Source: Phycisphaerae bacterium RAS1
GTDB lineage: Bacteria; Planctomycetota; Phycisphaerae; UBA1845; Fen-1342
Direction of reading: 5' to 3'
Length of the DNA: 64,000 bases
Assembly (NCBI GenBank): GCA_007859745.1
Contig: SMLU01000001.1
Coordinates: 1,364,001 to 1,428,000, forward strand
This document shows positions 1,467 to 57,232 of the stretch, one piece after another; position 1 is the stretch's first letter, and the number at the start of each line of letters is the position of its first letter. The notes below the pieces were generated by a model. That model made no database searches, was not told the DNA's origin, and was given only the letters and a program-made list of their open reading frames with translations. The position numbers and the translations under genes were made by a program.

Positions 1467-2688
1467 TGTCCAGCACGTCGACGCTGCCGTCATGGTTCGC
1501 GTCGGCGTTGAAAATGTCGCACGATGGGAAGAGCTGGTAGTACGCGCTCGGATTCAGCAGCGCCTGCGCGAACGGGTTGATGTCCAGCACGTTTACCGCG
1601 CCGTCGCAGTTCATGTCGCCCGTGCCGCCACCCAGCGAGAGCTCGATCCGATACGCCTCCGTGCGGCCGTTGCTGCGTCGCCCGTGGCCGATGATGAAGC
1701 GGCCGTCCGGCGTCATGGCGGACGCGATGTCGAGCGTCTGCCAGCCGTTCAGGCTGACGCCGTAGTCGTTCACCAGGGCCGACCAGAGCGTGCGCATGCC
1801 GCGGACCGGATCCCAGATGAACGCACGATCGCCGGAGTAGCCGACGATGAGGTGGCCGTCGGCGCGGATGGCCTGGGCGACGGCCACCACATCGCCGGAC
1901 AAGGTTCCGAGCTGCACAAGATCGACGGTCTCGTCAATCCGCCAGTAGCACGCGCTCGCGCCGCTCAGCGTGTAGAGGCCGCCGAGCACGTAGCGGCCGT
2001 CGACCGATAGGCCGCCGACTTCGGAGTCGGTGACTTCCTCGGGAACCGGCATATCGAACGCGCCCGATTCGAACGTCCACACGAACGCTCGTACCGCGGT
2101 GCTGGGTGTAAAGAAGCGCGTCGCGGCGATCGTGTTGCCGTTGTTGGATATTCGCATCGGCCGAAAAACGTCAGGCGTGCGCCCACCCAGACCCACGAGG
2201 CCGTTGACCGGCGTCCAGCGGAACATCTCCGGCGATGCGGCGGTCGTCGAAATCCCGGCGACGGACCAGCCGTTCGCCGATGTGCCCCAGGCCTCGCTGT
2301 AGTAGGGCGCGTCTGACAGGCCGCCGAGCCCGGCCATTCCGCCGGTCACGGTCCAGCGGAAGGCCTCCGTGCCGCTCGCGCTCTCCGTTCGTCCGACAAC
2401 CGTCTGACCGTCAGCGGAAACTCCATTCGCGTAACTTGCGACGCCGCCGCCGGGCAAATCTCCCAGCCCAACCATGCCGGCCACCGGGGTCCAGCGGAAC
2501 CCCTCCGGCCCGGCCGTCGCCTGCGACCAGCCGACAACCACCAGGCCATCCGCGGAGATTCCGAATGCGTAACTGGGTCCGGTATCTCCCCCGTTTACCA
2601 ACCCTCCCAGGCTCTGAATCGTGCCGCCGCACTGAGCGGTAGCGGCACCGAGAGCCAGAAGCAGAATTCGTGCGCGACATCGATGCAT
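1432..2688 (-). CDS. secreted HAF-repeat beta-propeller protein with dockerin-like C-terminus
   Basis: An exported protein of 418 residues with unknown function. It has a short hydrophobic signal peptide (about residues 1-22). A chain of HAF-type repeats follows (G-x-S-A-D-G-x-x-V-V-G then F-R-W-T and M-x-G-L-G), about six units from residue 30 to 330. The C-terminal 60 residues are a dockerin-like pair of calcium loops (M-N-C-D-G-A-V-N-V-L-D-I-N and N-H-D-G-S-V-D-V-L-D-I-N). GAGGA lies upstream of the ATG at 2688. In planctomycetes this C-terminal pair is common on cell-surface or secreted proteins and does not imply a cellulosome. Its 3' end overlaps the convergent sigma factor gene by 35 bp. 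Confidence 0.85.
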   Translation of the reverse strand: MHRCRARILLLALGAATAQCGGTIQSLGGLVNGGDTGPSYAFGISADGLVVVGWSQATAGPEGFRWTPVAGMVGLGDLPGGGVASYANGVSADGQTVVGRTESASGTEAFRWTVTGGMAGLGGLSDAPYYSEAWGTSANGWSVAGISTTAASPEMFRWTPVNGLVGLGGRTPDVFRPMRISNNGNTIAATRFFTPSTAVRAFVWTFESGAFDMPVPEEVTDSEVGGLSVDGRYVLGGLYTLSGASACYWRIDETVDLVQLGTLSGDVVAVAQAIRADGHLIVGYSGDRAFIWDPVRGMRTLWSALVNDYGVSLNGWQTLDIASAMTPDGRFIIGHGRRSNGRTEAYRIELSLGGGTGDMNCDGAVNVLDINPFAQALLNPSAYYQLFPSCDIFNADANHDGSVDVLDINPFVVVLESQ

Positions 2689-2982
2689 GATTACCGTCCT
2701 CAGCGCAAAGCCGGGTGGGCTCGTCGCCGTACTACCCAGCGGCGGCGATCGTCTTAAACGCTAGTCGAACGGGGCCTCTTTCGTCAACGCAATTTGGCAA
2801 ATGTGGTGACGCCTCCCGAGATGCCGCCTGTCCGGGCGTCCGAGTCACCGGTCGTACCGATAACCGCGGGCGCGGCAACCAAAACGACATCCGTTTCGGC
2901 CGGTGCATCGTCTATAGTACAGTAGCGCGATCACCGGCAAGCCGCCGGCCCGCTCTGCGTTCGCGCCGCCGGAGGAGCCGCC
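2689..2982. other. divergent intergenic region between two secreted-protein genes
   Basis: About 290 bp separate the divergent HAF-repeat gene and the 385-residue secreted protein gene, so both promoters should lie here. No clear -10/-35 pair, repeat or RNA could be assigned by eye. GGAGGAG at 2971-2977 is the ribosome binding site of the plus-strand gene. Confidence 0.4.
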
Positions 2983-4140
2983 GTGATTTTCCGTTTCCGC
3001 ACCACGCACGTCCTGGTCTCTGCTTCGATTTCCGCAATCGCGAGCTATGCAAGCGGCCCGACCGCGATGAACCCGCTGCCGGCGCCGCTGTTCAACTTTG
3101 ACCGCACGTCGCCGAGCATCAGCCTGAGCATTCAGGCCAATGACGTGCTGAGCGCGCCGGGGCCGGTGGTGGAGATCAACGGGCCGAACCTGGGATTGAC
3201 GAGTGCGAACGACGAGCTCGACGCGCTATCCGGCCCGAACACGTCCATCGGAATCGGCGCCACGTTCATTATCCTGTTCTCCGTCTCGCGTAACGCGGAG
3301 GGCGCTGTGCCGCCAGAACCGGCGTTGGTGGCGGCCGGGTTCCCGTACAACGTTCAGCATCAGGCGATGCGCAACCAGGCCGCCGGCGACGCGTTCGGCA
3401 GCCTGACGCTCTTCAATCGCCTGGGACCGCTGAACCCTGGACGCGTGACCCCGAACAACACGCTCTACTTGAATCAGGGCGACGCCGGCGGCGTGGACTA
3501 CAGCGCTCAGCCCGACACGTCGCCGGACTCAAACAACGCCGGCGCGACCGACGACGTCAAGTCCGGCGCTTACACGCCGCCCGTCACGCGCGGCGTGATC
3601 CCGCGGATTTTCTTCTCGGTCGACAAGTTCAGCCCGTCTCTGGCGATGCTTCCCGGAACGGGCAGCGGCGCCGACATCTACGTGGATACCGAGACCGACG
3701 GGCCGGGCGGGCAGACGCTTTACGCCGGGCCGCTGGTGCTGGGCCTGCAGCACGGCGACGATATCGACGGCATGATCGTCTTCGACAACGGCGACGGCGT
3801 GTTCAACCCCAACCAGGACCAAGTTCTCTTCTCGCTCTCCGATCAGTCGCCCACGGCGCTCATGGTGGGGCCCGGCAGCATTCTGACGAGCGTTCCCGGC
3901 GGCGGGATGTTCAACGTTTTCTGCGCCGCCGGCACCCTGGGGCTGCTGCCCAGCGATGAGCTCGACATGCTTGAGCTGGTGCAGACCAGCGACCCGATCC
4001 TGCTGGCGCAGCAGCGCGCCATCGGCTGCCCGGACGGTGGTTGCGACATTCCGGCCAGCTCGACAACTTCGGTCATCGTGCTGGCGGCGGCGCTGGCCGC
4101 GGCGGCGGTGGTCGTGCTGAAGCGCGGCGGCGCGGCGTAA
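2983..4140 (+). CDS. secreted protein with C-terminal membrane anchor, function unknown
   Basis: A 385-residue protein starting at GTG 2983, with a strong ribosome binding site GGAGGAG five bases upstream. The first about 25 residues form a signal peptide. The body is rich in Asp, Asn, Gly and Pro and has no motif I recognise. Near the C-terminus comes an Ala/Val hydrophobic helix (about residues 358-379) followed by K-R-G-G, as in sortase-like or simple tail-anchored surface proteins. I do not recognise a named family. It lies between two other predicted exported proteins, which suggests a surface role. Confidence 0.7.
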   Translation: MIFRFRTTHVLVSASISAIASYASGPTAMNPLPAPLFNFDRTSPSISLSIQANDVLSAPGPVVEINGPNLGLTSANDELDALSGPNTSIGIGATFIILFSVSRNAEGAVPPEPALVAAGFPYNVQHQAMRNQAAGDAFGSLTLFNRLGPLNPGRVTPNNTLYLNQGDAGGVDYSAQPDTSPDSNNAGATDDVKSGAYTPPVTRGVIPRIFFSVDKFSPSLAMLPGTGSGADIYVDTETDGPGGQTLYAGPLVLGLQHGDDIDGMIVFDNGDGVFNPNQDQVLFSLSDQSPTALMVGPGSILTSVPGGGMFNVFCAAGTLGLLPSDELDMLELVQTSDPILLAQQRAIGCPDGGCDIPASSTTSVIVLAAALAAAAVVVLKRGGAA

Positions 4141-52040: not shown

Positions 52041-52125
52041 TCCGAGCCGCGACCGTGAGGGAGCGGTGCAGTCGCGAAGAACGCTCATCTTGCCAAGGGG
52101 AGCTTCCTCACGAGCGCGGCTCTGA
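52041..52125. repeat. family B paired palindrome overlapping the tlyA-like stop
   Basis: The left arm 52041-52067 is an exact consensus copy (TCCGAGCCGCGACCGTGAGG plus GAGCGGT). The right arm (about 52101-52125) overlaps the 3' end of the minus-strand tlyA-like gene and supplies its S-E-P-R-S codons and TGA stop. Confidence 0.85.
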
Positions 52126-52692
52126 AGTCAACCACCAGACAAACTCACGGTTCCCGCCGTGACCCTCGAGCGGGCTTTGCACTTCCGCGCGGATCGACAT
52201 GTGCAACGCGCGGATGTCGTCGCGGCAGCGCCGGAGTACGGCGTCGAGACATTCGTCCGCCACGACGCCGCTGCGCAGCTCGGACGCCTCAGCCTCGTAC
52301 TGCGGCTTTATGAGTGTGAGGATGCCGCGCGCACCCTCCTTCAAGCAGCGCCGCGCCGCCGGCAGGATCATCCGCTGCGGCGTCCAGCCGACGTCGATCG
52401 TGACCAGGTCGGCCGGCTCCGGCGGCTCGAACCGCAGGGCGTTGCGCCGCTCGCAGACGACAACCCGCGCATCGCGCCGCAGCTTGTAGTTCAGGACGCC
52501 GTAGCCCGGGTCAACGGCGTAGACGCGGGCTGCGCCGTGTTGCAGGAGGCAGTCGACAAACCCGCCCGTGTGACTTCCGAAGTCGATGCAGACGCAGCCG
52601 GCGATGTCGAGACCGAAGCCGTGCAGCGCGGCCTCCAGCTTCAGTCCCGCGCGGGAGACATAGCGTTGCGGCCGGGCAGCGTCGCTCATCAT
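52108..52692 (-). CDS. TlyA-like RrmJ/FtsJ-fold rRNA methyltransferase lacking the S4 domain
   Basis: A 194-residue protein matching the methyltransferase half of TlyA/hemolysin A, which 2'-O-methylates rRNA. It starts with Y-V-S-R-A-G-L-K-L-E-A-A-L, the join after the S4 domain in normal TlyA, then D-F-G-S-H-T-G-G-F (SAM site), A-V-D-P-G-Y-G, D-V-G-W-T-P and L-I-K-P-Q-Y-E, so the catalytic Lys/Asp/Lys set is kept. The usual 60-residue S4 RNA-binding domain is absent; the upstream in-frame sequence does not resemble it and overlaps the next gene. The last residues S-E-P-R-S come from a repeat. Confidence 0.85.
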   Translation of the reverse strand: MMSDAARPQRYVSRAGLKLEAALHGFGLDIAGCVCIDFGSHTGGFVDCLLQHGAARVYAVDPGYGVLNYKLRRDARVVVCERRNALRFEPPEPADLVTIDVGWTPQRMILPAARRCLKEGARGILTLIKPQYEAEASELRSGVVADECLDAVLRRCRDDIRALHMSIRAEVQSPLEGHGGNREFVWWLTSEPRS

Positions 52693-52771
52693 GCTGGGAA
52701 TACCCCCACCAGAGCCGCGAGCGACCGCGCTTCTGACAGGTCCTCCGCCGGGCTGCGCCGAATCCGTGGAA

Positions 52772-53224
52772 TCATGGCGTCGCGGGCTCGAAGGGGCCGA
52801 ACGGACCTTGCACGGAGTCCACCAGCGTGCTCGCGATGAACTCGGCCAGTTCGTGTATCCTGTCTTTTTCTTCTCCATGGTACGCTTGCGCGTTCAAGGT
52901 GGTGAGCGACGCGTGGCCGACGCCACCTTCGCTTGGAGTGGCGACAACTTCGACGCCGATTTCGCGAAGCGCCCCCACCCTCAACGCCAAGACCCAATAG
53001 CGGCGGTTCGGTTGCGGTCGCCACCGTGCGACTTGTTCTGCCGATCGGTGTCTTGCCCGCCAAACCGAGATGCCCGTCGTGTCGTGCTTGTTGGGCCTGA
53101 AAACGACCCACGCAACCGGTTTTTCGGAATTAGGGTCGTAGTGGCCCGGTTCGGTGCCTTCGCGGACGCGCCGAAACACGATCTCGTCGTTGCCAACGAA
53201 ATCGGTCTCCTCGGGTGCGGCCAT
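52772..53224 (-). CDS. hypothetical protein, third gene of the TIGR04255 cassette
   Basis: A 150-residue protein that begins 12 bp after the preceding gene on the minus strand. The sequence has I-V-F-R-R-V-R near the start, W-V-V-F-R-P-N, G-I-S-V-W-R-A-R, then V-L-A-L-R-V-G-A-L-R-E-I-G-V-E-V-V and a G-H-A-S-L-T-T-L-N motif, followed by an acidic helical end. No signal peptide or membrane helix. I do not recognise a named family. Its tight spacing with the two upstream genes argues for a joint role. Confidence 0.65.
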   Translation of the reverse strand: MAAPEETDFVGNDEIVFRRVREGTEPGHYDPNSEKPVAWVVFRPNKHDTTGISVWRARHRSAEQVARWRPQPNRRYWVLALRVGALREIGVEVVATPSEGGVGHASLTTLNAQAYHGEEKDRIHELAEFIASTLVDSVQGPFGPFEPATP

Positions 53225-53236
53225 CCGGGCATTCCC

Positions 53237-53659
53237 CTACAGCGAAACGGGCGCGCGACCCTTTACTTTTCCATTCTCCATGAAAACCAGCTCGACGGCT
53301 CCCGATGAGGAGATTTCAAGTGCGATGCTGGTTTGCTGAGACCACCACTCAATGACGACGCCGCCATCACGATCGGGCACACAGCGACATGGGGGGGCGG
53401 ATTGGCGATCGCGCAGGCGCTGAACAAGCGTGCTCGAAGCCAGGATAGCGGTCGCCGTCGGCGGGATCAGGTCTTCGTCTGCCAACGCTTCCGTTTGACG
53501 ACCCCACTCGATGAGCTTCTTGTCGATCAGTTCGTTCCACGCGGCGCGCCATTCTGCGGCGCGGTTCGCCGGTTCAGACAGACTATCCTCCGAGGCCGCG
53601 CCGCTCCGCATGACCGTTCCGCTGGCCTGATTCAGAAAGAAGTCGGCCGAAGTGCTCAT
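53237..53659 (-). CDS. hypothetical protein, second gene of the TIGR04255 cassette
   Basis: A 140-residue protein starting at ATG 53659, which overlaps the upstream TIGR04255 stop as ATGA. The first 60 residues look helical (A-A-E-W-R-A-A-W-N-E-L-I-D-K-K-L-I-E-W). The C-terminal half is beta-rich (G-G-V-V-I-E-W-W-S-Q-Q-T-S-I-A-L-E-I and V-E-L-V-F-M-E-N-G-K-V), as in small immunity-like or structural proteins. No family is recognised. Confidence 0.65.
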   Translation of the reverse strand: MSTSADFFLNQASGTVMRSGAASEDSLSEPANRAAEWRAAWNELIDKKLIEWGRQTEALADEDLIPPTATAILASSTLVQRLRDRQSAPPCRCVPDRDGGVVIEWWSQQTSIALEISSSGAVELVFMENGKVKGRAPVSL

Positions 53660-54474
53660 TGTGCCCATACAACGCGCTCCCAGAATGCATGTGCGGCCTG
53701 CGACGTGATCTCTGAAAACATCGTCACGATCGCCGTGTGTCCTTTGTTCAATCCGGCGAAGACCGCGTCGATTCCGTCCGCCGGACCGCGCGCCGTCAGC
53801 ACCAGCCGCAGCGCGTGGGGGCCGCTGGCGGCGCCCACGCGGACATGAGTAAGCTCAACGTGCAGGCGTCCGGCGCGCGGCGCTATCTCGTACCGCCAGG
53901 TTCCGCCGACGTTCTCGAAGGCGGCAGTCGACGCCGCGGTCACGTTGCCGAGCAACCCGGGGAGCACGCGCGGCCAATCCGCCGGCGTGTCCCACACGGT
54001 TCCCTGCAGGATGTTGTTGACGTACGTCAACTCCCACTGGTTAGGTCGCAGCGGCCCCAGCCCCCGAGCCTGCAAGAACTCCGAAAACTGCTTCGCGAGT
54101 TCGCGATACTTCGGCAAGACGGCCTCGTATCGAGGATACTCCTGTCCCGAGCCAACCCAGTTGTAATGAAGACGATCTCGCTGGACCTGGATCATGGCGC
54201 TGCGCTTCTCGTCGCGAACACGAATGCGAGACGCGCGTTCCGAAGAGACCCGTAGTTTGAAGATATCCGGTGCCCAAAGCTGCTCTTCGTCGAACCGCTC
54301 AAAGGTCGGCTCGATCGGCGCCGCGTCCTCGACGTGCGGCCAGTCGGCGCCGAGCGACTGCCAAAAGCAGCCCAGATGGGCGTTCGTCAGCCCGGCGATG
54401 TTCTCGAACTGCATGCCCAGGACGGTTTCAACGACGGGGGGACGTTTGAAGTCCGGTAGACGAGTGTCCGCCAT
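53656..54474 (-). CDS. TIGR04255 family protein
   Basis: A 272-residue protein with the N-terminal signature of this sporadically distributed family (R-P-P-V-V-E-T-V-L-G-M-Q-F). The body alternates beta strands and helices (Y-P-R-Y-E-A-V-L-P-K-Y, N-Q-W-E-L-T-Y-V-N-N-I, W-R-Y-E-I-A-P). The family has no assigned function. ATG 54474 is used; a TTG three codons upstream sits closer to GAGGG and is possible. It heads a three-gene set with ATGA overlap and a 12-bp gap. Confidence 0.8.
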   Translation of the reverse strand: MADTRLPDFKRPPVVETVLGMQFENIAGLTNAHLGCFWQSLGADWPHVEDAAPIEPTFERFDEEQLWAPDIFKLRVSSERASRIRVRDEKRSAMIQVQRDRLHYNWVGSGQEYPRYEAVLPKYRELAKQFSEFLQARGLGPLRPNQWELTYVNNILQGTVWDTPADWPRVLPGLLGNVTAASTAAFENVGGTWRYEIAPRAGRLHVELTHVRVGAASGPHALRLVLTARGPADGIDAVFAGLNKGHTAIVTMFSEITSQAAHAFWERVVWAQ

Positions 54475-54551
54475 ACTGGACAATATACCCTCGGCTTTCG
54501 GGCGTCGCAGCGCCGCTTGCGTCCTCCGCTCTTCGGATTCGCGAGGTTCGT

Positions 54552-55421
54552 TTACCCCGCCGTAATCGCCCCGTACGTCTCCGGCCTCCGGTCGCGGAAG
54601 AACTGCCAGGTGTTCCGCACCTCGCGGATCATCTCGAAATCCAGATCCGCGACGAGCAGCTCATCCTTGTCGCGCGACGCTTCGCACAAAATCTTCCCGC
54701 GCGGATCACAGAAGTAAGACTGACCGTAGAACTCGCCGATGTTCCAGGGGGCCTCGCGGCCGGGGCGGTTGATGCAACCCATGAAATACTGGTTGGCGAC
54801 GGCGTGCGCCGGCTGCTCCAGCTTCCAGAGGTACTCGCTCAGGCCGGCGACGGTCGCGGACGGGTTGAAGACGATCTCCGCCCCGTTCAGGCCGAGGCAG
54901 CGGGCGCCTTCCGGAAAGTGCCGGTCGTAGCAGATGTACACGCCCACTTTTCCGATGCGCGTATCAAAGACCGGGTACCCGAGGTTGCCGGGGCGGAAGT
55001 AGAACTTCTCCCAGAAGCCGGGGGCCACGTGCGGGATGTGCGTCTTGCGGTACTTGCCGCGGTAGGTGCCGTCGGCGTCGATGACGGCGGCGGTGTTGTA
55101 GTAGACGCCGGTGAGGTCTTCCTCGTAGACCGGCACAACCAGCACCATCTGGTGCTTGCGGGCCAGCGAGCACATGAGCTGCGTGGTCGGGCCGTCGGGC
55201 ACTTTTTCGGTCAGGCTGTACCAGCGCACGTCCTGCTCGGCGCAGAAATACGGCCCGTAGAATAACTCCTGCATGCAGAGCACCTGCACCCCGCGCCCGG
55301 CGGCCTGCTCAATCAGGGCGACGTGCTTGTCGATCATGGACTGCTTGATCTTCTCGATGGGCGAGGTGGCGGGCTGGCTGAGCGTGGCCTGAATCAGACC
55401 GCCGCGGACGAGACGAGGCAT
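54552..55421 (-). CDS. carbon-nitrogen hydrolase (nitrilase superfamily), amidohydrolase
   Basis: Hydrolyses a C-N bond of a small amide or carbamoyl compound. It is 289 residues. The triad is Glu52 (C-M-Q-E-L-F-Y-G), Lys126 (K-Y-R-K-T-H-I-P) and Cys164 (I-C-Y-D-R-H-F-P-E). The sequence is near N-carbamoylputrescine amidase and beta-ureidopropionase. GAGGAGCTTCCGC precedes the ATG at 55421; upstream in-frame sequence is not conserved. No polyamine or pyrimidine-catabolism gene is adjacent, so the substrate is open. Confidence 0.9.
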   Translation of the reverse strand: MPRLVRGGLIQATLSQPATSPIEKIKQSMIDKHVALIEQAAGRGVQVLCMQELFYGPYFCAEQDVRWYSLTEKVPDGPTTQLMCSLARKHQMVLVVPVYEEDLTGVYYNTAAVIDADGTYRGKYRKTHIPHVAPGFWEKFYFRPGNLGYPVFDTRIGKVGVYICYDRHFPEGARCLGLNGAEIVFNPSATVAGLSEYLWKLEQPAHAVANQYFMGCINRPGREAPWNIGEFYGQSYFCDPRGKILCEASRDKDELLVADLDFEMIREVRNTWQFFRDRRPETYGAITAG

Positions 55422-55675
55422 GCGGAAGCTCCTCAGCAGGTGCGGAGAGTATAGAGCAACGGCCTGCGGATGCGGAGCCGGGTCGCCGGGGGGCCGCCCG
55501 GGTGGTCCGGGATGGGTTCGCCCGGGTTCGCCGATGATCCCCAAAAACGCGTTTCATTCGCCACGTTTTGCGTTAGAATAGACCATTGCGCTGAAGCGAC
55601 GCGCCGCCAGCGGCATCCGACGGAGGGTGTTGGCTCGACGGCGCGTCCGATCCTGCCGTCCAAACAGAGGTTTCG

Positions 55676-57232
55676 ATGCGCGCCCTTGACCGAAACTGCC
55701 GTCGTCTTGCGCACAGTCTGCTACTCGTCATCCTGACCGCGCCGGCCATGGCGCAGCTCCGCGTCGCCACGTGGAACATCACGAATTACAGCGGCGGGCG
55801 GACGGCGGACATCCAGACGGCGGTCTACGGCGTCTTCAGCGGCCGCACGTTTGCCCCGGACGTGCTGATGGCGCAGGAAGTCCTGAGCGCCTCGGCCCAG
55901 GCGGCGCTGCTCTCCGCACTCGACAACGCCGCCGGCGGCCCCGGCGACTGGGCCATGGCGACGTTTGTTGACGGGCCGGACACCGACTCGTCCTTCTTCT
56001 ATCGGACCAGCAAAGTCTCCCTCGTCGGTCAGGTGACGGTCGCGGTGGGCGGCGTTTCGCCGAATCACCCGCGCAACATCATGCGCTATGACGTGCGGCT
56101 GGCCGGCTACGACTCCGCCGCCGCCACGCTGGCGTGCTATAGCTCGCACATGAAGGCCCAGGAGTCGGGCAGCGACGACGACAACCGCCGCCGGCTTGAA
56201 GCGCAGCGCATCCGCGACAACGCGGAGACGCTTCCGGCCGGCTGGAACTTCGTGCTGGGCGCCGATTTCAATATTCAGAACTCGGCGTCTTTGGAATATC
56301 AGGACCTGGTCGGCTCGCAGGTCAACGACGCGGGCCGCTTCTTTGATCCGATCAATACGCCGGGGACGTGGAACAACAACGGGGCGTTCCGGTACGTTCA
56401 TACGCAGGATCCGGTCGGCGCGGGGGGTATGGACGATCGGTACGATCAGCTCCTGGTCAGCTCCGGCTTGCGGGACGGCGACGGGTTTGACTACCTGGGC
56501 AACAGCGCGATTCCGTATAGCACGGTGTCGTGGAGCGACACGAACCACTCCTACCGTTGCTGGGGCAACGACGGCACGAGCTTCAACCTGGCGATGACCA
56601 TCACGAACAATCAGATGGTCGGCACCGCCATCGCCCAGGCGATCGCCAATTCCACCGGCGGCAGCGCCGGGCACCTGCCGGTGTTCGCTGATTTTCGCGT
56701 TCCCCCCCTGGCCGACGCCCCGGCGACGCTCGACTTCGGTCAGGTTCCGCAGGATGAGCCGGCCGAACTGGTTCTGACGGTGACCAACAGCGGCGATACG
56801 GCGCTGTGGACGGCCAACGGCATTTCGCCGCTGGTTTACTCGCTGAGTGCAACCGCCGGATTCACGGCTCCAGGCGGTTCGTTCAATGATGCCGCGGGCG
56901 GCGGCGGCGTGAATCACCTGATTTCGATGGACACCTCGGCGGTCGGGCCGATGAGCGGGACGCTGACGATCACCTCGAACGCGCCCGAATCGCCGACGCT
57001 GGTGGTGTCGCTGGTGGGCGAAGTGATCGGGGCGGGCTTCGCGCCCGGCGACGTGAATTGCGACGGCGCCATCAACGTACTGGATATCAACCCGTTTACG
57101 CTGGCCCTGTCCGATCCGGTTGCCTACGCCGCGATGTACCCCGGTTGCGATATCGACCTGGCGGACGTGAATGGCGACGGGAACGTGGACGTGCTGGATA
57201 TCAACCCGTTCATCGCGCTGCTGTCGGGCTAA
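55676..57232 (+). CDS. secreted endonuclease/exonuclease/phosphatase-fold protein with dockerin-like end
   Basis: An exported protein of 518 residues. The signal peptide ends near residue 26 (A-M-A-Q). The EEP-like domain starts at V-A-T-W-N-I-T-N-Y near 30-38 and has M-A-Q-E-V-L near 63-68 and G-A-D-F-N-I near 198-203, matching the catalytic N, E and D-x-N positions. Residues about 350-450 resemble a choice-of-anchor or HYDIN-like beta domain (L-D-F-G-Q-V-P, L-T-V-T-N-S-G-D-T). The end has two calcium loops (N-C-D-G-A-I-N-V-L-D-I-N, N-G-D-G-N-V-D-V-L-D-I-N). A secreted nuclease or phosphodiesterase is the likely role. Confidence 0.88.
   Translation: MRALDRNCRRLAHSLLLVILTAPAMAQLRVATWNITNYSGGRTADIQTAVYGVFSGRTFAPDVLMAQEVLSASAQAALLSALDNAAGGPGDWAMATFVDGPDTDSSFFYRTSKVSLVGQVTVAVGGVSPNHPRNIMRYDVRLAGYDSAAATLACYSSHMKAQESGSDDDNRRRLEAQRIRDNAETLPAGWNFVLGADFNIQNSASLEYQDLVGSQVNDAGRFFDPINTPGTWNNNGAFRYVHTQDPVGAGGMDDRYDQLLVSSGLRDGDGFDYLGNSAIPYSTVSWSDTNHSYRCWGNDGTSFNLAMTITNNQMVGTAIAQAIANSTGGSAGHLPVFADFRVPPLADAPATLDFGQVPQDEPAELVLTVTNSGDTALWTANGISPLVYSLSATAGFTAPGGSFNDAAGGGGVNHLISMDTSAVGPMSGTLTITSNAPESPTLVVSLVGEVIGAGFAPGDVNCDGAINVLDINPFTLALSDPVAYAAMYPGCDIDLADVNGDGNVDVLDINPFIALLSG

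Follow-up and report, generated by a model that had tools for sequence, protein, structure and literature searches.

A TIGR04255-led three-gene operon, probably of the tripartite toxin-antitoxin type, and the exchange of its third gene

A compact cassette of three genes, led by a protein of the TIGR04255 family, is probably a tripartite operon of the toxin-antitoxin (TA) type. The third protein (P3) would act as the toxin, the second (P2) as its antitoxin and the TIGR04255 protein (P1) as a sensor or stabiliser; the toxicity and its neutralisation are what we infer. The TA-type reading becomes the stronger one because sister operons of TIGR04255 carry PIN, PemK/MazF or zeta toxins in the same slot.

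The cassette is present on the minus strand of the window (the whole stretch of 64,000 nucleotides that was analysed), with P1 as its first gene. As the genes are read from the minus strand, TIGR04255 leads the operon and has the highest coordinates. The features are as follows.

54552-55457, minus strand: flanking carbon-nitrogen hydrolase (ORF), upstream, outside the system
53656-54474, minus strand: P1, TIGR04255 family protein of 272 aa, lead gene of the operon
53656-53659, minus strand: ATGA stop/start overlap of P1 and P2, read from the sequence
53237-53659, minus strand: P2, 140-aa middle protein with a variable N-terminal tail and a C-terminal domain in common with PDC-M32A
52772-53224, minus strand: P3, 150-aa third protein of a PDC-M32B-like family
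52108-52695, minus strand: flanking TlyA/FtsJ-type RNA methyltransferase (ORF), downstream, outside the system

An earlier note on this DNA had described three packed genes with an ATGA overlap and a 12-bp gap, the first of them a TIGR04255 gene. Both points were borne out: the overlap, the 12-bp gap between P2 and P3 and the lengths of 272, 140 and 150 aa are read directly from the sequence, and P1 matches the NCBIfam model TIGR04255 over profile positions 2-252 of 252 (E 6.9e-15), its 55.5 bits lying above the curated cut-off of 30 bits. The ATGA overlap suggests translational coupling of P1 and P2. The same overlap of 4 nt recurs in 28 of 76 relatives. The median distance from P1 to P2 is -4 nt, and that from P2 to P3 is 15.5 nt. 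A TATATT lies about 10 nt before the ATG of P1 (window 54475-54490), and a clear ribosome-binding site was not seen there; judging from these letters, the cassette may be transcribed from a promoter of its own into a leaderless message.

The lower GC content that the earlier note had estimated by eye was confirmed on computation. The cassette has 62.8% GC, while the window averages 66.5% (sd 1.6); its value is below that of 98.9% of equal-sized windows, and the GC3 of its genes is 0.69-0.77 as against 0.83-0.89 in three neighbouring genes. It holds the single TIGR04255 gene of the 5.5 Mb host genome, which its closest P1 relatives and the dockerin-like repeats of a nearby protein suggest to be of the Planctomycetota type. 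The flanks had been called housekeeping genes, and both are indeed found in most relatives: the TlyA/FtsJ-type methyltransferase gene in 58 of 61, and the carbon-nitrogen hydrolase, presumably of the carbamoylputrescine-amidase type, in many of them as copies 76-84% identical. In the empty-site comparison, relatives do not carry the two flanking genes side by side, and the synteny of the flanks is not conserved. Beyond the hydrolase, window 55676-57232 (plus strand) encodes an endonuclease/exonuclease/phosphatase-type protein with C-terminal dockerin-like repeats (GDVNCDGAINVLDINPF..., DVNGDGNVDVLDINPF).

The proposal of the earlier note hung on whether the two partners recur beside TIGR04255 in other genomes, and they do. 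When an alignment of P1 was scanned against 84,980 species genomes (one genome per species), 80 loci were obtained; by profile, P2 was found in 74 of them and P2 together with P3 in 70, about 17 of the 80 having also seeded the profiles and thereby matching by construction. The order was always P1-P2-P3 on one strand, and several of the loci without the full set are contig ends. The P1 subfamily occurs in 11 phyla and the full cassette in nine (Planctomycetota, Acidobacteriota, Nitrospirota, Pseudomonadota, Verrucomicrobiota, Gemmatimonadota, Actinomycetota, Hydrogenedentota and Elusimicrobiota). No conserved fourth gene was found across the P1 loci. P2 and P3 were also searched separately, in 200 relatives each, and nearly all P3 matches have a P2 match and a TIGR04255 gene next to them, arranged as in the cassette; one genome (G059) has two such copies. 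A single-sequence scan of genome contigs with P3 returned nothing, since only close relatives are reached that way. By eye, the second and third genes of two further TIGR04255 operons (L038:2265-3474 and L039:2250-3549) resemble very divergent P2 and P3, with the motifs DGMSLNR and AHSILMHH; they stay below the profile thresholds.

Another route to the identity of the pair is the phage-defence candidate PDC-M32 of PADLOC, which consists of two genes, A and B. The literature search found it in one paper, only as a prophage-borne PADLOC call (PMC12429752). The C-terminal domain of PDC-M32A (about residues 262-350 of 375) belongs to the P2 family and PDC-M32B to the P3 family; the order is the same as that of P2-P3, and the B gene overlaps or just follows A. 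The N-terminal two thirds of PDC-M32A form an unrelated domain, here called X, whereas the cassette has a separate TIGR04255 gene and a stand-alone P2. Thus, P2-P3 is a shared pair, and in the cassette TIGR04255 replaces X. The P2 of the window matches PDC-M32A at E 5.9e-4, over profile residues 291-341 only, and 40 of 75 members of its family match as well (best 9.6e-15); those inspected in place land on the C-terminal domain. Similarly, 37 of 68 members of the P3 family match PDC-M32B at E<=0.1 (best 4.2e-10), the window P3 itself having no PADLOC match at E<=1. Neither P1 nor P2 is itself a PDC-M32A protein, which would have about 375 aa with X joined to a P2-type domain. X as a divergent TIGR04255 was ruled out by profile.

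Domain X also occurs apart from the pair. At L191:1471-2801 it is present without the P2 domain, its tail ends in DHYIYG, and a PIN-domain protein follows (Pfam PIN, 1e-8). Behind X, therefore, the P2 domain with P3 and a different tail with PIN are alternatives, and from the sequences X reads as an N-terminal module common to different antitoxin-like proteins. At L189:3-1214 and 2565-3293 (both minus strand) a PDC-M32 pair is flanked, by eye, by type I restriction S-subunit-like and RhuM-like genes.

A P3-profile search of 246 genomes gave 20 matches, and in 17 of them a P2-domain gene lies directly upstream; the remaining three have an upstream gene of similar position. The lead is TIGR04255 in 14 of these 20 loci and domain X in two. 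At L267:423-947 (plus strand) and L271:667-972 (reverse-complement coordinates), P2-P3 is led by a protein of about 100 aa that is neither TIGR04255 nor X and that we take to be DUF3467-like. These leads and the results of the profile search indicate that P2-P3 is the unit, to which a lead of one of several kinds is added. At L269:1145-1701 (reverse-complement coordinates), two overlapping P3-type frames follow one P2 gene with no recognised lead; they represent two P3 genes in tandem or a single P3 with a frameshift.

None of the three proteins of the window has a Pfam match or a usable match in PDB sequence searches, and P1 has no PADLOC match. In the P2 family, W41, P90 and G99 are near-invariant, and no real Pfam match was seen among 20 relatives. 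The PDB matches of P2 are short stretches to designed beta-trefoils and were judged to be chance. The role proposed for P2 is that of an antitoxin or adaptor.

For P3, there is no real Pfam match among 68 relatives and no sequence match to any solved structure. Its AlphaFold (AF2) model has a pLDDT of 92.6. A Foldseek search of the PDB with this model gave no significant match; among the 27 matches at E<=10, 18 are of the ADP-ribosyltransferase (ART) fold, all with E>1 and TM <=0.37. They come from seven proteins, namely KptA/Tpt1 of three archaea, DarT of M. tuberculosis and of E. coli, pierisin and AvrPphF ORF2. Against a viral fold library, the best match was an unnamed 149-aa protein (prob 0.87, E 0.12). 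Conservation among the 68 sequences is strongest at S53 (68/68), H104 (66/68), R18 (65/68) and E14 (63/68), and each of R18, S53 and H104 lies within, or begins, a predicted strand of its own (15-21, 52-56 and 104-107). ART enzymes keep their triad residues in similar places, on separate strands. Their usual triad is Arg-Ser-Glu or His-Tyr-Glu, whereas P3 conserves Arg-Ser-His, and no conserved Glu is seen at the third position in the 68 sequences. The predicted structure of P3 is thus weakly like KptA/Tpt1, DarT and other ART-fold enzymes, to which its 150 aa show no sequence similarity. On the basis of the model, an ART fold is likely, and P3 may be a small NAD-using enzyme.

The model of P1 (AF2) has a pLDDT of 93.8. 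Its best Foldseek matches are TATA-binding proteins (TBP; prob 0.97, E 1.2e-3) with TM-scores of only 0.26-0.27, followed at lower ranks by Bet v 1-like proteins, again with low TM-scores. The model can be read as a pair of helix-grip-like halves. Profile-profile comparison of the two detected no internal duplication (prob 1 of 100), so this division is no more than an interpretation of the predicted fold. SecB was found neither by sequence nor among the 50 fold matches listed. P1 is a member of NCBIfam TIGR04255 (sporadTIGR04255), whose family model carries no function, and the literature search found no mention of TIGR04255 or of DUF7689.

The genes downstream of TIGR04255 were classified in 59 loci from two family searches, and here the third gene was found to be exchangeable. 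The P2-P3 class accounts for about 15 of the 59. A 'TQ/SQ-CDL' (TQ-CDL) protein is present in 12, and in three more by eye, with an HTH-like middle protein. PIN follows in eight (six by profile, L216 and L218 by Pfam) and in one more by eye, DUF7689 in eight, PemK/MazF in one and a metallo-beta-lactamase fold in one or two; about nine have no assignable partner. Pfam confirms PIN in L018, L025, L028, L216 and L218, DUF7689 in L005, L022 and L027, PemK in L212, and Zeta_toxin on a Vibrio plasmid. Each class of third gene has its own small middle gene, usually with a 4-nt overlap with the TIGR04255 stop. No shared peptide was seen among the middle proteins of the sister operons, whose N-terminal tails were compared by eye only. 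In a tree of 70 TIGR04255 proteins, the class of the third gene changes at least 13 times, the minimum possible being six. Strongly supported branches alone force changes in P2-P3 (three), TQ-CDL (five), PIN (three) and DUF7689 (two).

These exchanges bear upon the view that the cassette is an ordinary metabolic or regulatory operon, in which the toxin-like third genes are coincidental neighbours. The housekeeping flanks would suit such an operon; the conservation of the slot, the overlaps and the repeated replacement by PIN, PemK and zeta across lineages are hard to explain by coincidence, and we consider this view improbable. P2 and P3 have the layout of a type II TA system, being two small, adjacent, tightly packed and co-occurring genes. 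Counting against the TA reading, DUF7689, TQ-CDL and the metallo-beta-lactamase fold are not known toxins.

The tripartite TA-type reading could work in the following manner. P3 would be the toxin, probably a small NAD-dependent enzyme of the ADP-ribosyltransferase fold. P2 would be its cognate antitoxin or adaptor, whose C-terminal domain pairs with P3 while the variable N-terminal tail is left free for a third partner to grip. P1, the generic lead protein, would hold or stabilise the antitoxin, or the complex of antitoxin and toxin, and serve as the sensor. Removal or alteration of P1, for which an invading phage is the most plausible cause, would make P2 fail, and P3 would then halt growth.

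Another possible role is that of a TA module that only stabilises plasmids or genomes by addiction. Some copies do reside on plasmids: in Mycobacterium paragordonae the P1-P2-P3 operon comes directly after a MobF relaxase gene, in Limnohabitans a PDC-M32 pair lies among annotated TA genes, a Rhizobium plasmid carries another PDC-M32 pair, and TIGR04255 genes of other kinds are found on conjugative plasmids. The relaxase neighbour and the annotated TA genes would fit addiction. Nearly all copies of the cassette are chromosomal, however, and with the P1 of the window as query a relative was found in only 1 of 72,556 plasmid records; moreover, simple addiction has no need of a third, exchangeable component. 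Addiction alone is, therefore, a very doubtful explanation. P1 relatives were also seen on two metagenomic viral contigs, and none in the phage records searched. On a conjugative Rhizobium plasmid (L251:2192-7174), a TIGR04255 operon adjoins a multiubiquitin-ThiF-DUF6527 cluster reminiscent of a ubiquitin-like conjugation system.

The more serious contender, and still an unlikely one, is an anti-phage operon outside the TA class, in which TIGR04255, on detecting a phage product, activates a P2-P3 effector complex directly, with P2 as a scaffold. The homology of P2 and P3 to the phage-defence candidate PDC-M32, the sporadic spread over 11 phyla, the restriction S-subunit-like gene seen by eye beside one PDC-M32 copy (L189) and the multiubiquitin-ThiF-DUF6527 neighbour on the Rhizobium plasmid would all agree with it. 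Yet PIN, PemK and zeta, which occupy the same slot, are classical TA toxins, and P1-P3 match no characterised defence system of PADLOC but only a candidate. The two roles, TA and defence, are mutually compatible. The earlier note had proposed an accessory module for defence, immunity or mobility. The sporadic spread, the low GC, the plasmid copies and the homology to PDC-M32 agree with this proposal, which is sharpened here to a tripartite TA-type operon, for which phage defence would be a plausible use.

A broader proposal is offered tentatively, as one that falls a little short of even likelihood. TIGR04255 would be the founding member of a non-SecB class of generic lead proteins of tripartite TA operons, joined with PIN, PemK, zeta, DUF7689, TQ-CDL and P2-P3 pairs and itself replaceable by X or a DUF3467-like protein, thus making up a mix-and-match platform of sensors and toxins that is probably anti-phage. 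In the sister operons the lead protein is common and the toxin differs, so the roles of sensor and effector would be separable. If the TA-type reading is true, TIGR04255, an orphan family of wide distribution, would obtain its first function, and so would the candidate PDC-M32. The reading would also provide a second, SecB-independent way for a third protein to put TA pairs under an outside signal.

The swappable three-gene TIGR04255 operon is absent from the literature searched, and the closest known systems are those in which a chaperone attends a TA pair. TAC relies on a SecB-like chaperone to protect the antitoxin, and several TA families (HigBA, HicAB and MqsRA) make use of it (PMC5105189). 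CmdTAC contains an ADP-ribosyltransferase toxin that modifies mRNA and is freed when the chaperone is drawn off by a capsid protein of a phage (PMC11618068). Like the cassette as proposed here, these systems have three genes: a toxin, an antitoxin and a generic third protein that is joined with several toxin families. The third protein of TAC is SecB-like, whereas the TIGR04255 model is weakly like TBP and Bet v 1, of a helix-grip kind, with no SecB match. P1-P3 match none of the PADLOC models of CmdTAC, and P2 and P3 have no Pfam, NCBIfam or PADLOC match to HigBA, HicAB, MqsRA or CmdTA. Since the SecB-like component was looked for and is absent, the TIGR04255 operons are not members of TAC. 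On present evidence, and by analogy, they would work like TAC and CmdTAC with a different lead protein.
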